Below are positions 6,043 through 16,857 of a DNA stretch of 64,000 nucleotides, piece by piece. Each line of letters starts with the position of its first letter. Within the stretch, counting starts at the first letter, position 1. The notes beneath the pieces are model-generated. The model searched no databases, was not told where the DNA came from, and saw only the letters and a program-made list of their open reading frames with translations. Source of the DNA: Pedobacter ureilyticus. Lineage in GTDB: Bacteria; Bacteroidota; Bacteroidia; Sphingobacteriales; Sphingobacteriaceae. The stretch spans positions 198,086 to 262,085 of the forward strand of contig NZ_SSHJ01000004.1 of NCBI RefSeq assembly GCF_005925345.1. The letters are read 5' to 3'. The position numbers and the translations under genes were made by a program.

Positions 6043-6735
6043 TTAATTCACTACCAATTTATATCCTTTGCCGTGAACATTGATGATTTCTACTTTTGGA
6101 TCTTCTCTCAAATACTTGCGCAACTTACTTAAAAACACATCCATACTACGCCCGTTAAAGTAGTTATCGTCATGCCAAATATGTATCAATGCTTCTTCTC
6201 TGGTTAGCACGCTATTTTTCTTTAAGCATAGCAAACGTAATAACTCGGCTTCTTTGGTAGATAGTTTTTGCTGCGCCCCTTTAAAATGAATTAATTGCGT
6301 GGTATAATCAAAAGTATAATCGCCTATTTCAAATTGCTTCGGTTCTTCTTCTTGCACCGTTTGTACCGTAGAAACCCTTTTTAGCAAAGCATTGATACGA
6401 AGCAGAAGTTCCTCAATTCTAAATGGTTTAGTGATATAATCATCGCCGCCCAAATCATAAGCAGAAGCCTTATCTTCCATCATAGATTTTGCAGTGGCAA
6501 AAATAATGGGCACGTTCGGGTCAGATTTTCTGATATCTTTACCCAAAGTAAAACCATCCTTTTTAGGCATCATCACATCCAATATACAGATATCAAAAGG
6601 TTGTTTGCCAAAAGCTTTCAGACCTTCCTCGCCATCGGTACACAAAACCACCTCAAAATTACCTTTAATCTGTAGGTAGTCTTGCAACAACAGCCCTAAA
6701 TTCGGATCATCCTCAACCAATAGTATTTTCTTCAT
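6043..6735 (-). CDS. OmpR/PhoB-family response regulator (RprY-like)
   Basis: This is a 230-residue two-domain regulator. The receiver domain (1-120) has the acidic pair E8/D9-D10, phosphoacceptor D53 in CILDVMMPKKDG, T81 and K103 in TKPFR. The C-terminal winged helix (about 135-228) ends in the usual INVHGKGYKLVV. It is encoded 9 bp downstream of its histidine kinase on the same strand, so the two form a kinase-regulator operon. Sequence and layout resemble RprX/RprY of Bacteroides, but equivalence is not proven from this window. Its targets are unknown. Confidence 0.92.
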   Translation of the reverse strand: MKKILLVEDDPNLGLLLQDYLQIKGNFEVVLCTDGEEGLKAFGKQPFDICILDVMMPKKDGFTLGKDIRKSDPNVPIIFATAKSMMEDKASAYDLGGDDYITKPFRIEELLLRINALLKRVSTVQTVQEEEPKQFEIGDYTFDYTTQLIHFKGAQQKLSTKEAELLRLLCLKKNSVLTREEALIHIWHDDNYFNGRSMDVFLSKLRKYLREDPKVEIINVHGKGYKLVVN

Positions 6736-6744
6736 ATCGTTTGC

Positions 6745-8580
6745 TTAATTTATCGGTAAATGTATTACAAATGTAGTTCCTTTATCTTTTTCGCTCTGCA
6801 CCCTAATGGTACCATTCATTTGTTTAATGATGTCGTTTACATAGCTTAAACCTAAGCCAAAGCCTTTCACGTCGTGTAAATTCCCTGTAGGCACTCTATA
6901 AAACTGATCAAATATCCTTTTAGTTTGCTCCTTAGTCATTCCAATTCCCTCGTCCTGCACCTCTATACCAATTCCATTTGCCAGATTTTTGGTTTTTACA
7001 GTAATTTTGGGATTTTCTGGGCTGTATTTATTAGCATTATCAATCAAATTGTAGATCATGTTAGATAAATGCAGTTCATCGCCAATTACAACATCTGGAT
7101 CGGCATCCAAAACTAAAACCAGTTCGGCATTTTTCTTTTGCAACTGTAAACTTATGCTATCTACCACTAAGGAAATTAGCTCGTTCATTGCCACTGGGCT
7201 ACGGCCTAACTTAAGTTCTTTATTATCCAATTTGGCTACATTAAGTACTCGCTCAATGTGGCTACCCAGACGTACATTTTCATCGTAAATAATGCCTGCT
7301 AAACGGTTAACCCTTGCTTTATCAGGCGTTAGATCGGGATCTTTTAGGGCTTCGCTGGCAATCATGATGGTAGCAACAGGAGTTTTAAACTCATGTGTCA
7401 TGTTGTTAATAAAATCTGTCTTCATCTCAGAAAGTTTTTTCTGACGGATGATGGCATAAATGGTATAAGCAAAAATAGAAATGAGCACTAACAGCAAACC
7501 CACAGAAGACACCAAGGTTACGAACATGTTGTTAAAGATCAATGAGTTTTTACTAGGGAAGCTTATATACAGCATTCCAGGGTCTTTGGTCAGCAAATCG
7601 TTGCCAAAAATAACCTTGCTAAAAGTGTTTTTAGGCATTACATCTCCTGTTGGCAAAGATACATTTTGGTAAATGACCTTACCTGCGTTTCTGGATGGCG
7701 TTACCCAGTAATTATAGTCTAAATCAATATTCTTACTTAGCAATTCTGCCTTAATTAAGGTGTCTACAACTTCTTGACTGGGCATCCGATCTTTGAGTGG
7801 CACATCTTTATTGGCCATTTCTTTAGCCACATCCTGCAATAGCATTACATTTCTGCCATTGGCAAAAATATTCACGGTATCAGCGTAAAGGCGCTCCAAT
7901 TCTACTTTGTACAAGTGCTCTGCCTTGGCATCTTCCATCTTAAACCTAACTTTTAGATCGGGGTCTATAGAAGGCAACGTGATAAACTGCGGTCGTAAAT
8001 CAGTAGGGCTTAAAGCTAAATAAATGATAGAATCTGGCAGATTATTAAGCTTAATTACAGGCCTTTTTCTTACATAGCTAGAAGATAGCTGCCTACTTAC
8101 TACCCTGCCATCCTTGGTTCTTAACTCATTAATATTGTAGGTTAGGGTATTATCGTTTGGGTTGGGATTAGACAAGATAGCATAATCCTCTTCGCTAATA
8201 ATTTGCGGCTGCAAGTAATTAGCATTGATGATGCTGTCTTGAAAATTGAGGTAAGCTAAAATTTGTTGTTGTTGTTTAAGCTTACGTTGAATTTCGTTTT
8301 CCTTAAACTTAACCTTAAAAGATACAATACTATCCGTTTTACTTCTTATGCTACTAACCTCTAACTGCTTGAACTCATTATCTTTTTGATTAATGCGGTG
8401 GATGACGTTTTGCTTCTGTATTTTATTAACTACAGCAACTAGCGCTTGGTTTACATTTTGCTCAAACAGCTGAGATTTTAGATTGTACGACTCTCTGATG
8501 TAATACATCTGCATTACAAAAACACCCAACAATGCGAAAGTCATTAGGGCGGTAATTATCCAAAGGCTCTTCTTTTTCAT
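6745..8580 (-). CDS. Two-component sensor histidine kinase (RprX-like)
   Basis: The 611-residue membrane kinase has a transmembrane helix at about 8-25, a periplasmic sensor region of roughly 300 residues, and a second helix near 345-370. The HisKA domain contains NNMTHEFKTPVAT (phosphoacceptor H396), and the HATPase_c domain has the N box (NMIYNLIDNANKYSP), G1 (VQDEGIGM) and G2 (GFGLGLSYV). It autophosphorylates and should pass the phosphate to the regulator encoded just downstream. The sensor region matches no named domain I can recognise; it is rich in Gln/Lys coiled-coil-like sequence near 60-115. The ATG at 8580 begins a clean MKKKSLWIITALM membrane start. Confidence 0.92.
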   Translation of the reverse strand: MKKKSLWIITALMTFALLGVFVMQMYYIRESYNLKSQLFEQNVNQALVAVVNKIQKQNVIHRINQKDNEFKQLEVSSIRSKTDSIVSFKVKFKENEIQRKLKQQQQILAYLNFQDSIINANYLQPQIISEEDYAILSNPNPNDNTLTYNINELRTKDGRVVSRQLSSSYVRKRPVIKLNNLPDSIIYLALSPTDLRPQFITLPSIDPDLKVRFKMEDAKAEHLYKVELERLYADTVNIFANGRNVMLLQDVAKEMANKDVPLKDRMPSQEVVDTLIKAELLSKNIDLDYNYWVTPSRNAGKVIYQNVSLPTGDVMPKNTFSKVIFGNDLLTKDPGMLYISFPSKNSLIFNNMFVTLVSSVGLLLVLISIFAYTIYAIIRQKKLSEMKTDFINNMTHEFKTPVATIMIASEALKDPDLTPDKARVNRLAGIIYDENVRLGSHIERVLNVAKLDNKELKLGRSPVAMNELISLVVDSISLQLQKKNAELVLVLDADPDVVIGDELHLSNMIYNLIDNANKYSPENPKITVKTKNLANGIGIEVQDEGIGMTKEQTKRIFDQFYRVPTGNLHDVKGFGLGLSYVNDIIKQMNGTIRVQSEKDKGTTFVIHLPIN

Positions 8581-13665: not shown

Positions 13666-13699
13666 TTAACATTATCTTAACCTAATAGCTGTAATTTAG
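13666..13699 (+). promoter_or_regulatory. Candidate Pho box and -7 element before the PhoR-like kinase
   Basis: TTAACAT (13666-13672) and TTAACCT (13677-13683) are direct repeats with an 11-bp period, the spacing used by PhoB/PhoP dimers. Eight bp later TAATTTAG (13692-13699) matches the TAnnTTTG -7 box with one mismatch. The geometry is identical to the site at 14862-14895. Confidence 0.6.
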
Positions 13700-13717
13700 C
13701 AATATAAAAATTTATAA

Positions 13718-14770
13718 ATGAAGTTTAGCGTATTGGTTTTATTTACAGCTTTGGCTGTTGGGCTGTCCATTGGTTTGGTAAATTACCACTTTCAGGGCAG
13801 TTGGTATTATCTACTTATATCTTTCGGAATTTCATTTGGCACCAGTTTCCTCGTATTTTATTATCTACTAGAAAAATACATTTACAGTAAAATTAAGCTT
13901 ATTTACAAGCAAATACATAACCTCAAACTCGGCAAAGATTTAAAAGAAGCGCTTGGAGAATATGTAAGTGCCGACCCCATAAACGATGTACAACAAGAAG
14001 TGGAAGAATGGGCTGGAGCTAAGAAAAAAGAAATTGAACTGTTAAAAAAACAGGAACAGTTTAGAAGAGAATTTCTTTCGAACGTATCTCACGAATTTAA
14101 AACCCCCCTTTTTGCCATACAGGGATATATTGAAACCCTGCAAGATTGCCTGTTAGACGACCCTGAAATGGCTGTAAAGTTTTTAAAAAAAGCAGAAAAC
14201 AATGTTGAGCGGCTAAGCTACTTGATCAAAGATCTAGATTCGATTTCGAAATTAGAAACCGGCGAAATACCCATTAACTATGTAAGGTTTGATATTGTAC
14301 CTTTAGTAAAGGAGGTGCTCGACATATTGGAAGATAAAGCCCTATCTACACAAACAAAACTAATTTTTAAGGATAAATATACTGCGCCCACAATGGTGTA
14401 CGCAGATAGAGAAAAAATTAGACAGGTAATGATGAACCTCATCCAAAATTCTATCAAATATGGTAAAGAAAATGGCTCTACTTCAGTTAAAATATTTGAA
14501 CTGCACGACCAATACCTAATTGAAGTTACCGACGACGGCATGGGCATTGAAGAGAAACATTTGACGCGTTTGTTTGAGCGCTTTTACCGGATAGACTCCC
14601 ATCGTTCTAGAAAAGAAGGAGGAACAGGTTTGGGCTTAGCTATTGTAAAACACATTTTAGAAGCGCACCAACAAACTATTTCTGTACGAAGCACCCCAAA
14701 TATCGGAACTACATTTGCCTTCACGATCCAAAAATATCACGAACCTTTGTTAAACTACGGTAAAAAATAA
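13718..14770 (+). CDS. PhoR-like sensor histidine kinase
   Basis: The 350-residue kinase has two N-terminal membrane helices (about 3-21 and 29-51) with almost no periplasmic loop, a short linker, a HisKA domain with phosphoacceptor H125 (FLSNVSHEFKTPL), and HATPase_c with the N box (VMMNLIQNSIKYG), G1 (VTDDGMGIEE), the F box (LFERFYRID) and G2 (GGTGLGLAI). The lack of a sensor domain fits PhoR, which senses through transporter partners. It lies directly upstream of DUF47-Pit phosphate genes and behind a Pho-box-like promoter, so phosphate control is a reasonable inference. No response regulator gene is adjacent on either side. Confidence 0.85.
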   Translation: MKFSVLVLFTALAVGLSIGLVNYHFQGSWYYLLISFGISFGTSFLVFYYLLEKYIYSKIKLIYKQIHNLKLGKDLKEALGEYVSADPINDVQQEVEEWAGAKKKEIELLKKQEQFRREFLSNVSHEFKTPLFAIQGYIETLQDCLLDDPEMAVKFLKKAENNVERLSYLIKDLDSISKLETGEIPINYVRFDIVPLVKEVLDILEDKALSTQTKLIFKDKYTAPTMVYADREKIRQVMMNLIQNSIKYGKENGSTSVKIFELHDQYLIEVTDDGMGIEEKHLTRLFERFYRIDSHRSRKEGGTGLGLAIVKHILEAHQQTISVRSTPNIGTTFAFTIQKYHEPLLNYGKK

Positions 14771-14861
14771 ATACTGTTTTCGCCCTTTAAGACTAATATA
14801 AGGCATTTCAATTCACTAACGCAGCTAAACCATTAACAATCAAATAAAATTGTCGCAAAAG

Positions 14862-14895
14862 TTAACATTAACTTAACATTGCGACTTTACTTTTG
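14862..14895 (+). promoter_or_regulatory. Candidate Pho box and exact -7 element before the DUF47-Pit operon
   Basis: TTAACAT occurs twice (14862-14868 and 14873-14879) with an 11-bp period. Eight bp further is TACTTTTG (14888-14895), a full match to the Bacteroidota -7 consensus TAnnTTTG. The box sits where an activator would replace a -33 element. The start codon is 20 bp downstream. Confidence 0.68.
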
Positions 14896-14915
14896 CATCA
14901 TATTTAAATACGAGT

Positions 14916-15557
14916 ATGAGCAATATATTTAGCTTCTTTACACCTAAAGACAAAAAATTTCAGCCATTATTTGAGCAAGCTGGAAGTAATGTTAGAAAAA
15001 TCGCAGAAACACTTTTAATAGTAGTTACTGCTGATGATATCGAAAAAAGAAAAGAAGCCATTAAAGAGGTAGAACGCCTTGAGCATGTTGGCGATGATAT
15101 TACCCACACTATCTTTATCGAATTAAGTAAAAACTTTATCACACCGTTTGACAGGGAAGATATCCACTCGCTAGCTAGTGCTATTGATGATATTGCCGAT
15201 TATATCCACGCATCAGCAGGAAACATTGAACTTTACAACGTAACCAACATTGGCGAGCCAATGGTAAAATTAGCCGAGTTGCTGGTAGAAATGTGTACCG
15301 ACCTTGAAAAAGCGATTAAAGAACTAAGAAGCTTTAAAAACATTAGAGTAATTGCTGATGCTTGCGTGAGAATTAATAGTGCAGAAAACCAAGCAGACTA
15401 CACTTGCAACTTGGCTATTGCCCGTTTATTCGAATTTGAAACTAACGCGATAGAATTAATTAAGCAAAAAGAGGTGTTACAAACGCTAGAAATTGCCACT
15501 GATAAATGTGAAGATGCAGCAAATGTGCTAGAATCTATCTTGGTTAAAAACGCATAA
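14916..15557 (+). CDS. DUF47 (PhoU-like) phosphate transport accessory protein
   Basis: The 213-residue all-helical protein belongs to the DUF47/TIGR00153 PhoU-like family. Typical blocks are FTPKDKKFQPLFEQAG, RLEHVGDDITHTIFIELSKNFITPFDREDIHSLASAIDDIADYI and CVRINSAENQADY, including the metal-binding E/DxxxD repeats of PhoU bundles. Members are nearly always encoded next to Pit transporters and are thought to tune their activity. Here the Pit gene starts 7 bp after the stop, so the two are co-transcribed. The start has a TAnnTTTG promoter and Pho-box-like repeats 20-54 bp upstream. Confidence 0.92.
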   Translation: MSNIFSFFTPKDKKFQPLFEQAGSNVRKIAETLLIVVTADDIEKRKEAIKEVERLEHVGDDITHTIFIELSKNFITPFDREDIHSLASAIDDIADYIHASAGNIELYNVTNIGEPMVKLAELLVEMCTDLEKAIKELRSFKNIRVIADACVRINSAENQADYTCNLAIARLFEFETNAIELIKQKEVLQTLEIATDKCEDAANVLESILVKNA

Positions 15558-15564
15558 GATCATT

Positions 15565-16857
15565 ATGACCATACTTCTAATCATTATTGTTTTAGCGCTG
15601 ATCTTTGATTACATCAACGGTTTTCATGATGCAGCTAACGCAATTGCAACCATTGTGGCCACAAAGGTACTTACACCTTTCCAAGCTGTAGTATGGGCTG
15701 CATTTTTTAACTTTTTAGCCTATTGGGTGTTTGGTTTCGGTGTTGCCGATACCGTTGCTAAAACAGCAAACACCATGGAAATTAACCTCACGGTTATTTT
15801 GGCGGGAGTAATAGCAGCTATTATATGGAATTTATTAACCTGGTGGTTTGGCATCCCTTCCAGTTCATCGCATACCTTAATTGGTGGTTTTGCGGGGGCA
15901 GCAGTAGCCCACGCAGGCTTAGACGTAGTAAATTGGTATAAAGAAGGTAAGGCTGGCGAAATGCCAACAGGCGTTTTGGTAATTGTTGGCTTTATTGTAC
16001 TTGCGCCGCTTATTGGTGCAATTGTATCTTATTTTATTTCTATTTGGTTACTCCACTCTGCTAAGAAAAGTATTTGGCCCAAAGTATTTACGCTTTCGCT
16101 GATGATTGCAACTATTGTTTTTGTATACTTCCAAATGGTTCCCTATGATAAAATTTTAAAACCACGTTTCGAATCTGAATTTTGGAGTGTAGTTTTCGAA
16201 TCTCATAACATCAAATGGTTCTTAGTTGCTTTTATCGTATTAACGATCAGCTCTTTTTGTTTGATTTTTAGCTTCTTAAGTCATCATCAATCTACCAAAT
16301 GGCTTAGAAAAATGCAGCTACTATCTTCTGCCGCATTCAGTTTAGGACACGGTGGTAACGATTCGCAAAAAGTAATGGGAATTATTGCTGCTGCAGTTTT
16401 AGTTTATGTACACCAAAGCGGGGTTACTATGGAAAGTATGCCAGATTGGTTACACGTAGTATTACCCGGTAAAGATGCTAGTGGTAACGAAACAGCTGCC
16501 CACATGCCTGCTTGGATACCTTTAGCTTGTTATACCGCAATATCTGTTGGGACGTTAAGTGGTGGTTGGAAAATTGTTAAAACAATGGGTTCTAAAATTA
16601 CAAAAGTAACTCCATTTGAAGGTGTAACCGCAGAAACCGCAGGTGCTTTAACACTTTACTTTACTGAGCATTTAAAAATTCCGGTAAGTACCACACATAC
16701 CATTACAGGATCTATTATTGGCTCTGGCATAACCAAAGGAACTTCTGCCGTAAAATGGGGAGTAACCGTTAAATTGATATGGGCATGGGTTTTAACCATT
16801 CCTGTTTCGGCAGCTCTGGCAGCAATATTATATTATATTTTAGCTTTCTTTATTTAA
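15565..16857 (+). CDS. pit: Pit-family inorganic phosphate transporter
   Basis: The 430-residue integral membrane protein has about ten hydrophobic segments. The two family signatures are both seen: FDYINGFHDAANAIATIVATKVLTP near the N-terminus with GIPSSSSHTLIGG, and the second half copy FSLGHGGNDSQKVMGII with IPVSTTHTITGSIIG. These duplicated GxHDAAN/GGNDSQK and P-S/T-S-x-T-H-T motifs form the phosphate path in PiT transporters, which carry metal-phosphate with protons or sodium. It is the second gene of the DUF47-pit operon and ends in a strong terminator. Confidence 0.94.
   Translation: MTILLIIIVLALIFDYINGFHDAANAIATIVATKVLTPFQAVVWAAFFNFLAYWVFGFGVADTVAKTANTMEINLTVILAGVIAAIIWNLLTWWFGIPSSSSHTLIGGFAGAAVAHAGLDVVNWYKEGKAGEMPTGVLVIVGFIVLAPLIGAIVSYFISIWLLHSAKKSIWPKVFTLSLMIATIVFVYFQMVPYDKILKPRFESEFWSVVFESHNIKWFLVAFIVLTISSFCLIFSFLSHHQSTKWLRKMQLLSSAAFSLGHGGNDSQKVMGIIAAAVLVYVHQSGVTMESMPDWLHVVLPGKDASGNETAAHMPAWIPLACYTAISVGTLSGGWKIVKTMGSKITKVTPFEGVTAETAGALTLYFTEHLKIPVSTTHTITGSIIGSGITKGTSAVKWGVTVKLIWAWVLTIPVSAALAAILYYILAFFI

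Follow-up and report, generated by a model that had tools for sequence, protein, structure and literature searches.

For PhoB/PhoP-type regulators, the Pho box consists of two 11-nt direct-repeat units, each with seven conserved and four less conserved bases (PMC4415409). In Escherichia coli, Bacillus subtilis and Streptomyces these units lie just upstream of the core promoter, before phosphate genes and the regulator's own gene, and the unit reads CTGTCAT in E. coli and GTTCACC in Streptomyces coelicolor (PMC4415409).

For the Bacteroidota, a half-site has already been published. DAP-seq with PhoP of Riemerella anatipestifer gave a motif from 583 peaks, with TTTAACA as its most conserved bases and a likeness drawn to the ArcA motif, and EMSA placed the protein upstream of its own operon; as far as the accessible text goes, neither an 11-bp pair nor a -7 geometry is stated there, and the named targets are mostly not phosphate genes (PMC9603813). 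In Flavobacterium johnsoniae, phoB and phoR form one operon together with a TonB receptor (pf07715, pf13715, pf14905) and a lipoprotein that are strongly induced by phosphate depletion; pstS occurs in only 26 of the 102 genomes considered there, and the word "motif" is absent from the main text (PMC8115612). The promoter core of the same species is described as a -7 element spanning -12 to -5, with a TTTG element at -33 (PMC6847099). Searches of open-access papers showed no Pho-box geometry for Sphingobacteriaceae. We take the PhoP boxes of B. subtilis to be TTAACA-like, a point for which the literature search found no paper.

Direct reading of the window (the whole 64-kb stretch of Pedobacter DNA analysed here, G000:C34:198086-262085) showed that two promoters share the architecture TTAACAT-N4-TTAAC(A/C)T-N8-(-7 box). 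The full reading is TTAACAT-TATC-TTAACCT-N8-TAATTTAG before the kinase gene and TTAACAT-TAAC-TTAACAT-N8-TACTTTTG before DUF47-pit, with 26 bp from the first repeat to the -7 box in both (Table 1). The earlier note on this DNA had described the same 11-bp period, 8-bp spacer and 26-bp distance, with one -7 mismatch before the kinase and none before DUF47-pit, and its reading proved exact. At the scan threshold, no third site was found on either strand of the 64-kb window. An inverted repeat, GTCGCAA/TTGCGAC, that surrounds the pit box (14852-14885) was rejected as a candidate element, being lost even in the close relatives L049-L053. The genome is Pedobacter-like: its DUF47 protein shares 98% identity with the P. 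chitinilyticus counterpart and 99% with that of L098, a record labelled Flavobacteriaceae; the other near relatives are Pedobacter.

Table 1. Positions and properties of the promoter elements, genes and RNAs (window numbering unless a contig or locus is named).
Feature	Position	Strand	Details
RprXY-like two-component pair	6043-8580	-	Regulator: top NCBIfam match RprY, 306 bits, cut-off 370
Pho-box repeat 1, kinase promoter	13666..13672	+	TTAACAT
Pho-box repeat 2, kinase promoter	13677..13683	+	TTAACCT; TTAACTT in several close relatives
-7 box, kinase promoter	13692..13699	+	TAATTTAG, 1 mismatch to TAnnTTTG
Predicted start, kinase promoter	around 13704	+	By the -12..-5 numbering in the accessible part of PMC6847099
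PhoR/PnpS-like histidine kinase, 350 aa	13718..14770	+	HisKA, HATPase_c
Pho-box repeat 1, DUF47-pit promoter	14862..14868	+	TTAACAT
Pho-box repeat 2, DUF47-pit promoter	14873..14879	+	TTAACAT
-7 box, DUF47-pit promoter	14888..14895	+	TACTTTTG, exact TAnnTTTG
Predicted start, DUF47-pit promoter	near 14900	+	By the -12..-5 numbering in the accessible part of PMC6847099
DUF47 / PhoU-divergent protein	14916..15557	+	PF01865, 84.1 bits, cut-off 24.4
Pit-type phosphate transporter	15565..16857	+	PF01384, 300.8 bits, cut-off 33.7
Orphan PhoB-like regulator	G000:C1:229930-230616	-	The only one of nine without an adjacent kinase among neighbouring ORFs
Small RNA copy 1 (outside window)	G000:C49:94022-94104	-	~80 nt
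Small RNA copy 2 (outside window)	G000:C23:236548-236629	-	~80 nt
~70-aa predicted membrane protein	L226, L228, L230, L242, L252, L253, L264, L268, L271, L276, L279, L282, L284, L286		

Both sites are very probably PhoB-type Pho boxes, at which a PhoB-like regulator would, under phosphate shortage, act together with RNA polymerase at the -7 box. They belong to the known design: two 7-bp direct units repeat with an 11-bp period immediately upstream of the core promoter. With the F. johnsoniae -7 element numbered -12 to -5, one repeat would cover roughly -38 to -32 and the other roughly -27 to -21, the place of the -33 element. Unlike the E. coli and Streptomyces boxes, the unit here is TTAACAT, and it stands 8 bp from a Bacteroidota -7 box, TAnnTTTG. 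The TTTAACA core reported for the same phylum, likewise with a site upstream of the regulator's own operon, resembles it.

A scan of the 4.98-Mb genome for the pattern including the -7 box, with at most two mismatches, returned 11 matches and none for the reversed pattern. When the -7 box was left out of the pattern, the repeat pair was not enriched in this genome (158 versus 140 reversed), and a looser W-version with three mismatches was hardly enriched (24 versus 19); the signal therefore resides in the repeats and the -7 box jointly. Seven of the 11 matches fit the phosphate reading. They lie before pit, before the PhoR-like kinase, before a PhoA-family alkaline phosphatase (PF00245), before a TonB receptor at G000:C49 that is followed by a 452-aa protein resembling a lipoprotein by eye, before a 76-aa protein (translated by hand) and before two small RNA copies. 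As in F. johnsoniae, this receptor carries the three Pfam domains named above, among five in all, ahead of its lipoprotein-like partner. The remaining four precede genes with no evident phosphate link, named by eye from their translations: two sigma-factor genes, one SusC-like receptor gene and obg. The 76-aa protein, to which no function is assigned, sits directly behind a near-perfect Pho box (G000:C1:524480, minus strand; also L260), and its mRNA may be leaderless, since the gene begins so close to the -7 box.

Broader scans gave the same picture. Across 60 Pedobacter genomes, with at most one mismatch allowed, there were 101 matches versus one reversed, and every genome had at least one (99 matches outside the own genome plus its own two, with four duplicate loci, L288 and L290 among them, excluded). 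These matches precede DUF47 genes (59), a ~70-aa predicted membrane protein (14), the small RNA (8), the 76-aa protein (2) and other genes (18); the last group comprises one PBP/PstS-type gene, seven sigma-factor-like and five SusC-like genes, named by similarity cluster and eye, and five without assignment. Many of the 18 have no known phosphate link. The ~70-aa protein had no Pfam match in the one locus tested (L253), and its promoters mostly show CATNTTTG where the -7 consensus would stand. Among 296 genomes of the phylum, 28 matches were found in 24 genomes, versus two reversed. Outside the own genome, these 26 fall before eight DUF47 genes (two checked with Pfam, six by translation), three PBP/PstS-type genes, three Porin_O_P-like genes (two over the cut-off, one just under), six TonB receptor genes and six others, namely one DUF2490, one beta-propeller and one TetR gene and three without assignment. 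Matches thus concentrate before phosphate genes, mainly DUF47-pit and then pstS-type and porin genes.

The earlier note had argued that the matched architecture speaks against chance and had proposed a scan of the complete genome for clustering before phosphate genes such as pst, phoX and phoB. The claim stands, and such clustering is seen for phosphate genes generally, within this genome as across genus and phylum, with phased repeats also at the PhoB-like gene; the expected pst genes are largely absent, and 4 of the 11 own-genome matches, like many of the 18 other genus matches, do not fit. The shared geometry of the two promoters is not due to chance. Coincidence in AT-rich DNA could draw on the commonness of the repeat pair alone, yet the excess that appears once the -7 box is included, in the genome, the genus and the phylum alike, leaves this explanation extremely improbable.

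Conservation among relatives argues in the same direction. The 80 loci with the most similar DUF47 proteins were compared, and in 76 a repeat pair with at most one mismatch lies upstream of DUF47, compared with 8 of 16,000 shuffled upstreams. Within these 80 loci, the spacer is 8 bp before an exact -7 box in 58 and before a -7 box with one mismatch in another 10, and 9 bp before an exact box in 4; thus in 68 the pair holds a fixed place upstream of the core promoter, where a -35/-33 element would otherwise stand. In 70 DUF47 upstreams aligned on the repeats, these and the -7 box are near-invariant and the outer flanks variable. Such persistence amid diverging flanks makes chance very unlikely for the pit promoter, and among the closest relatives of the kinase promoter no loss of the box was seen, which argues against chance there too.

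The two promoters differ in how far their boxes extend. A kinase homologue is present in 70 of the best 80 loci, and the box score was reached in 15 of the 69 with an aligned gene start, including the clade around P. chitinilyticus. In 14 of these 69 loci no -7 candidate lay close to the assigned kinase start; three of them (L050, L051 and L098) do have the box further upstream, the assigned start being off. The pit box is therefore widespread, kept in nearly all related loci, and the kinase box confined to a minority. Alternatively, the pit box alone could be a genuine Pho box and the kinase box weak or non-functional, given the latter's absence from most relatives scored and its off-consensus -7 box. 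We regard this as unlikely, because the kinase repeats, their spacing and the -7 box are kept in its own clade and neighbours (L049-L054, L056-L059, L092, L098, L112) while the flanks change. Two Pho boxes, the kinase one limited to a minority of relatives that includes this Pedobacter clade, remain our preferred reading.

The phase of the repeats relative to the -7 box was determined in sets of promoters collected with a protein or an RNA model. In these sets TTAACAT matches are concentrated at 11-bp steps (-15, -26, -37 and -48). In the DUF47 set the peaks are at -26 and -15, where 55 of 75 distinct promoters pass; in the small RNA set they are at -37, -26 and -15, and 44 of 46 distinct promoters (from 47) carry the repeats at -26 and -15, a pass there being a summed match of at least 10 of 14 at these two positions. 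The regulator set peaks at -48, -37 and -26, and of its 29 promoters just 9 pass at -26/-15, the -15 unit being degenerate (mean 3.6 of 7 matches). When both positions were slid from -10 to +8, no promoter passed in the small RNA and regulator sets, and up to 13 of 75 did in the DUF47 set, at +6, a signal that likely comes from the TAAC within the spacer. The small RNA result is largely independent of the motif, because 38 of the 47 promoters were not matches of the box pattern.

A candidate for the protein that reads these boxes is encoded elsewhere in the genome. Eight of its nine OmpR-type regulator genes have an adjacent histidine-kinase gene, and the ninth is the orphan of Table 1, present in 59 of the 60 Pedobacter genomes. 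Its receiver and winged-helix DNA-binding domains score over their cut-offs (PF00072, PF00486), and its best two NCBIfam families are both PhoB, with scores under the cut-off (TIGR02154, 227.1 versus 296.2 bits; NF053854, 218.6 versus 270). The kinase has PnpS as its best NCBIfam match, at 258 bits against a cut-off of 400, and falls below the cut-offs for PhoR (TIGR02966, 237.7 versus 334.2; NF053855, 168.3 versus 500). As these curated cut-offs are not reached, the two are termed PhoB-like and PhoR-like only; the name "PhoR-like" given earlier to the kinase is sound as a resemblance and goes no further. No response-regulator gene is among the neighbouring ORFs listed around the kinase. Since both are orphans, they are likely partners.

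The regulator gene itself carries TTAAC repeats. In 30 of the 59 upstreams, which were read by eye, TTAACAATTTGTTAAC occurs in 28 and TTAACAATTTCTTAAC in two, most of them followed by a third TTAAC-like unit at the next 11-bp step, and the repeats share the 11-bp phase of the pit and small RNA promoters. A palindrome, TTAACAATTTGTTAA, overlies the direct repeat in 28 of the 30 (the L130 promoter on G000:C1 and relatives L167-L195); as a reading of the site it was set aside, being broken in L168 and L194 while the direct repeat persists (by eye). The box thus stands before phosphate-uptake genes and before the regulator's own gene, as in described Pho systems, and the forecast that it is the Pho box of this lineage gains support from these repeats together with the matches, at the level of sequence.

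Regulators of the OmpR class characteristically use tandem sites, and the RprY-like regulator encoded at 6043-8580 lies only about 7 kb away, so the repeats might be the site of that or another OmpR-type protein. This is quite improbable: matches precede phosphate genes across the phylum, phased repeats occur at the PhoB-like gene, and by eye no clear array stands in the 100-180 bp before the other eight regulator genes (operon promoters may be more distant). Under the preferred assignment to the PhoB-like regulator, we infer that this protein, phosphorylated probably by the kinase at 13718-14770, binds the tandem repeats at low phosphate and brings the housekeeping RNA polymerase of the Bacteroidota to the -7 box. 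The regulon would include DUF47-pit, the kinase, the regulator gene, the PhoA-family alkaline phosphatase, the TonB receptor with its lipoprotein, the 76-aa protein and the two small RNA copies; the kinase itself would be under a box in this Pedobacter clade.

Phosphate sensing here may depart from the classical Pst-linked arrangement. No protein of this genome (99.98% complete) reaches the PstB cut-off (best 155 bits versus 343), which 13 of 14 control genomes pass, and a complete PstSCAB is accordingly wanting on PstB. One PstS-like protein was found, with neighbours that look like TonB and ExbD by eye. Whereas F. johnsoniae keeps phoB and phoR in one operon, kinase and regulator are apart in this genome, and because the kinase adjoins DUF47-pit, it is a fair guess that kinase, DUF47 protein and Pit form one phosphate-sensing unit.

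Several box matches lead straight into a conserved stretch without evident reading frame that begins TAAATATTTGGTTAGTATTTA and ends in a terminator-like hairpin. A model built from 10 sequences found via the box gave 129 matches. They are spread over 57 of the 60 Pedobacter genomes, each of which has between one and six, at least one of them reaching 69 bits. When 159 genomes of the class were searched, only the two from the genus gave strong matches; seven non-Pedobacter genomes had matches of 40-46 bits, which were not counted as members, and a third own-genome match (C1:512445; 44 bits, no Pho box) was dropped. Fifty of the 129 matches were read, 20 of them, the two own copies included, by selection, and 47 were retained after L355, L373 and L374 (weak, no box) were left out. 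The latter two scored 51-52 bits; they have the same GTTTGGTTAG loop as the small RNA and its GGAT terminator loop, L373 apparently lies just past a tRNA (by eye), and the two may represent another RNA family with this loop in common.

The structure of the RNA is supported by covariation. Of the 47 strong copies read, 34 were aligned on sequence alone, and the structure was carried over from an earlier fold. On this alignment 13 of 22 pairs changed on both sides, and 95.3% of cells paired, versus 45-52% when slid; none of 500 shuffles reached the covariation score, and 10 of 500 equalled the tally of additional pair types. By the F. johnsoniae numbering, the predicted start lies no more than one or two bases from the first hairpin (by eye). 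With a predicted promoter of its own, a conserved structure with terminator and no conserved reading frame (by eye), it appears to be a stand-alone RNA. Rfam found nothing at gathering score in six small RNA loci or in the window, and the comparison of BTnc231 (Rfam) with the small RNA gave 16.8 bits against a gathering score of 80.4. In kind it resembles BTnc231 and Rfp18 (PMC9723704), which are likewise short stand-alone structured transcripts. Searches of open-access papers showed no Pho-controlled or phosphate-response small RNA of Bacteroidota. We regard this apparently undescribed, structured ~80-nt RNA as a candidate phosphate-starvation small RNA. At L039:6171-7928 a two-domain acyltransferase gene (PF19576 + PF13444), with a domain arrangement as in the OlsF type of ornithine-lipid synthase, converges on the small RNA, and a similar convergent neighbour is seen by eye in several other Pedobacter.

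An unpaired stretch, GUUUAGGUU(U)AGUUGAU, is near-invariant in the RNA. Its reverse complement, with at most three mismatches, has no clear overall excess in the own genome (94 versus 73 reversed). Among the 28 best of 92 non-self loci, eight are followed by an ATG in the next 30 nt, in every case at 7-12 nt, against a baseline of 53 of 521 for permuted patterns on own-genome stretches; for a narrower 5-14-nt range the baseline was 100 of 2750, this range being chosen post hoc and its P value not trustworthy. Of the seven sites with two mismatches, four precede an ATG by 7-12 nt (also post hoc), and by eye their genes include two SusC-type receptors (L391, L393) and one predicted lipoprotein (L388). 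Pairing near the start codons of receptor and lipoprotein mRNAs is only a lead. A fuller scheme is possible and on balance doubtful: a genus-wide, multi-copy trans small RNA of ~80 nt, driven by the Pho box in phosphate starvation, would pair through this stretch before start codons and shut down outer-membrane receptor and lipoprotein mRNAs, with the PhoR-like kinase, DUF47 and Pit sensing and importing phosphate without Pst.

For the Sphingobacteriaceae, these results give a usable and testable Pho-box definition: an 11-bp TTAACAT pair, 8 bp and TAnnTTTG. A blind genome scan with this box recovers DUF47-pit, pstS-type and phosphate-selective-porin-like genes across the Bacteroidota and also uncovers a structured RNA apparently under the same control. 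Phosphate regulons could thus be deduced from genome sequence in a phylum that matters for phosphorus turnover in soil.
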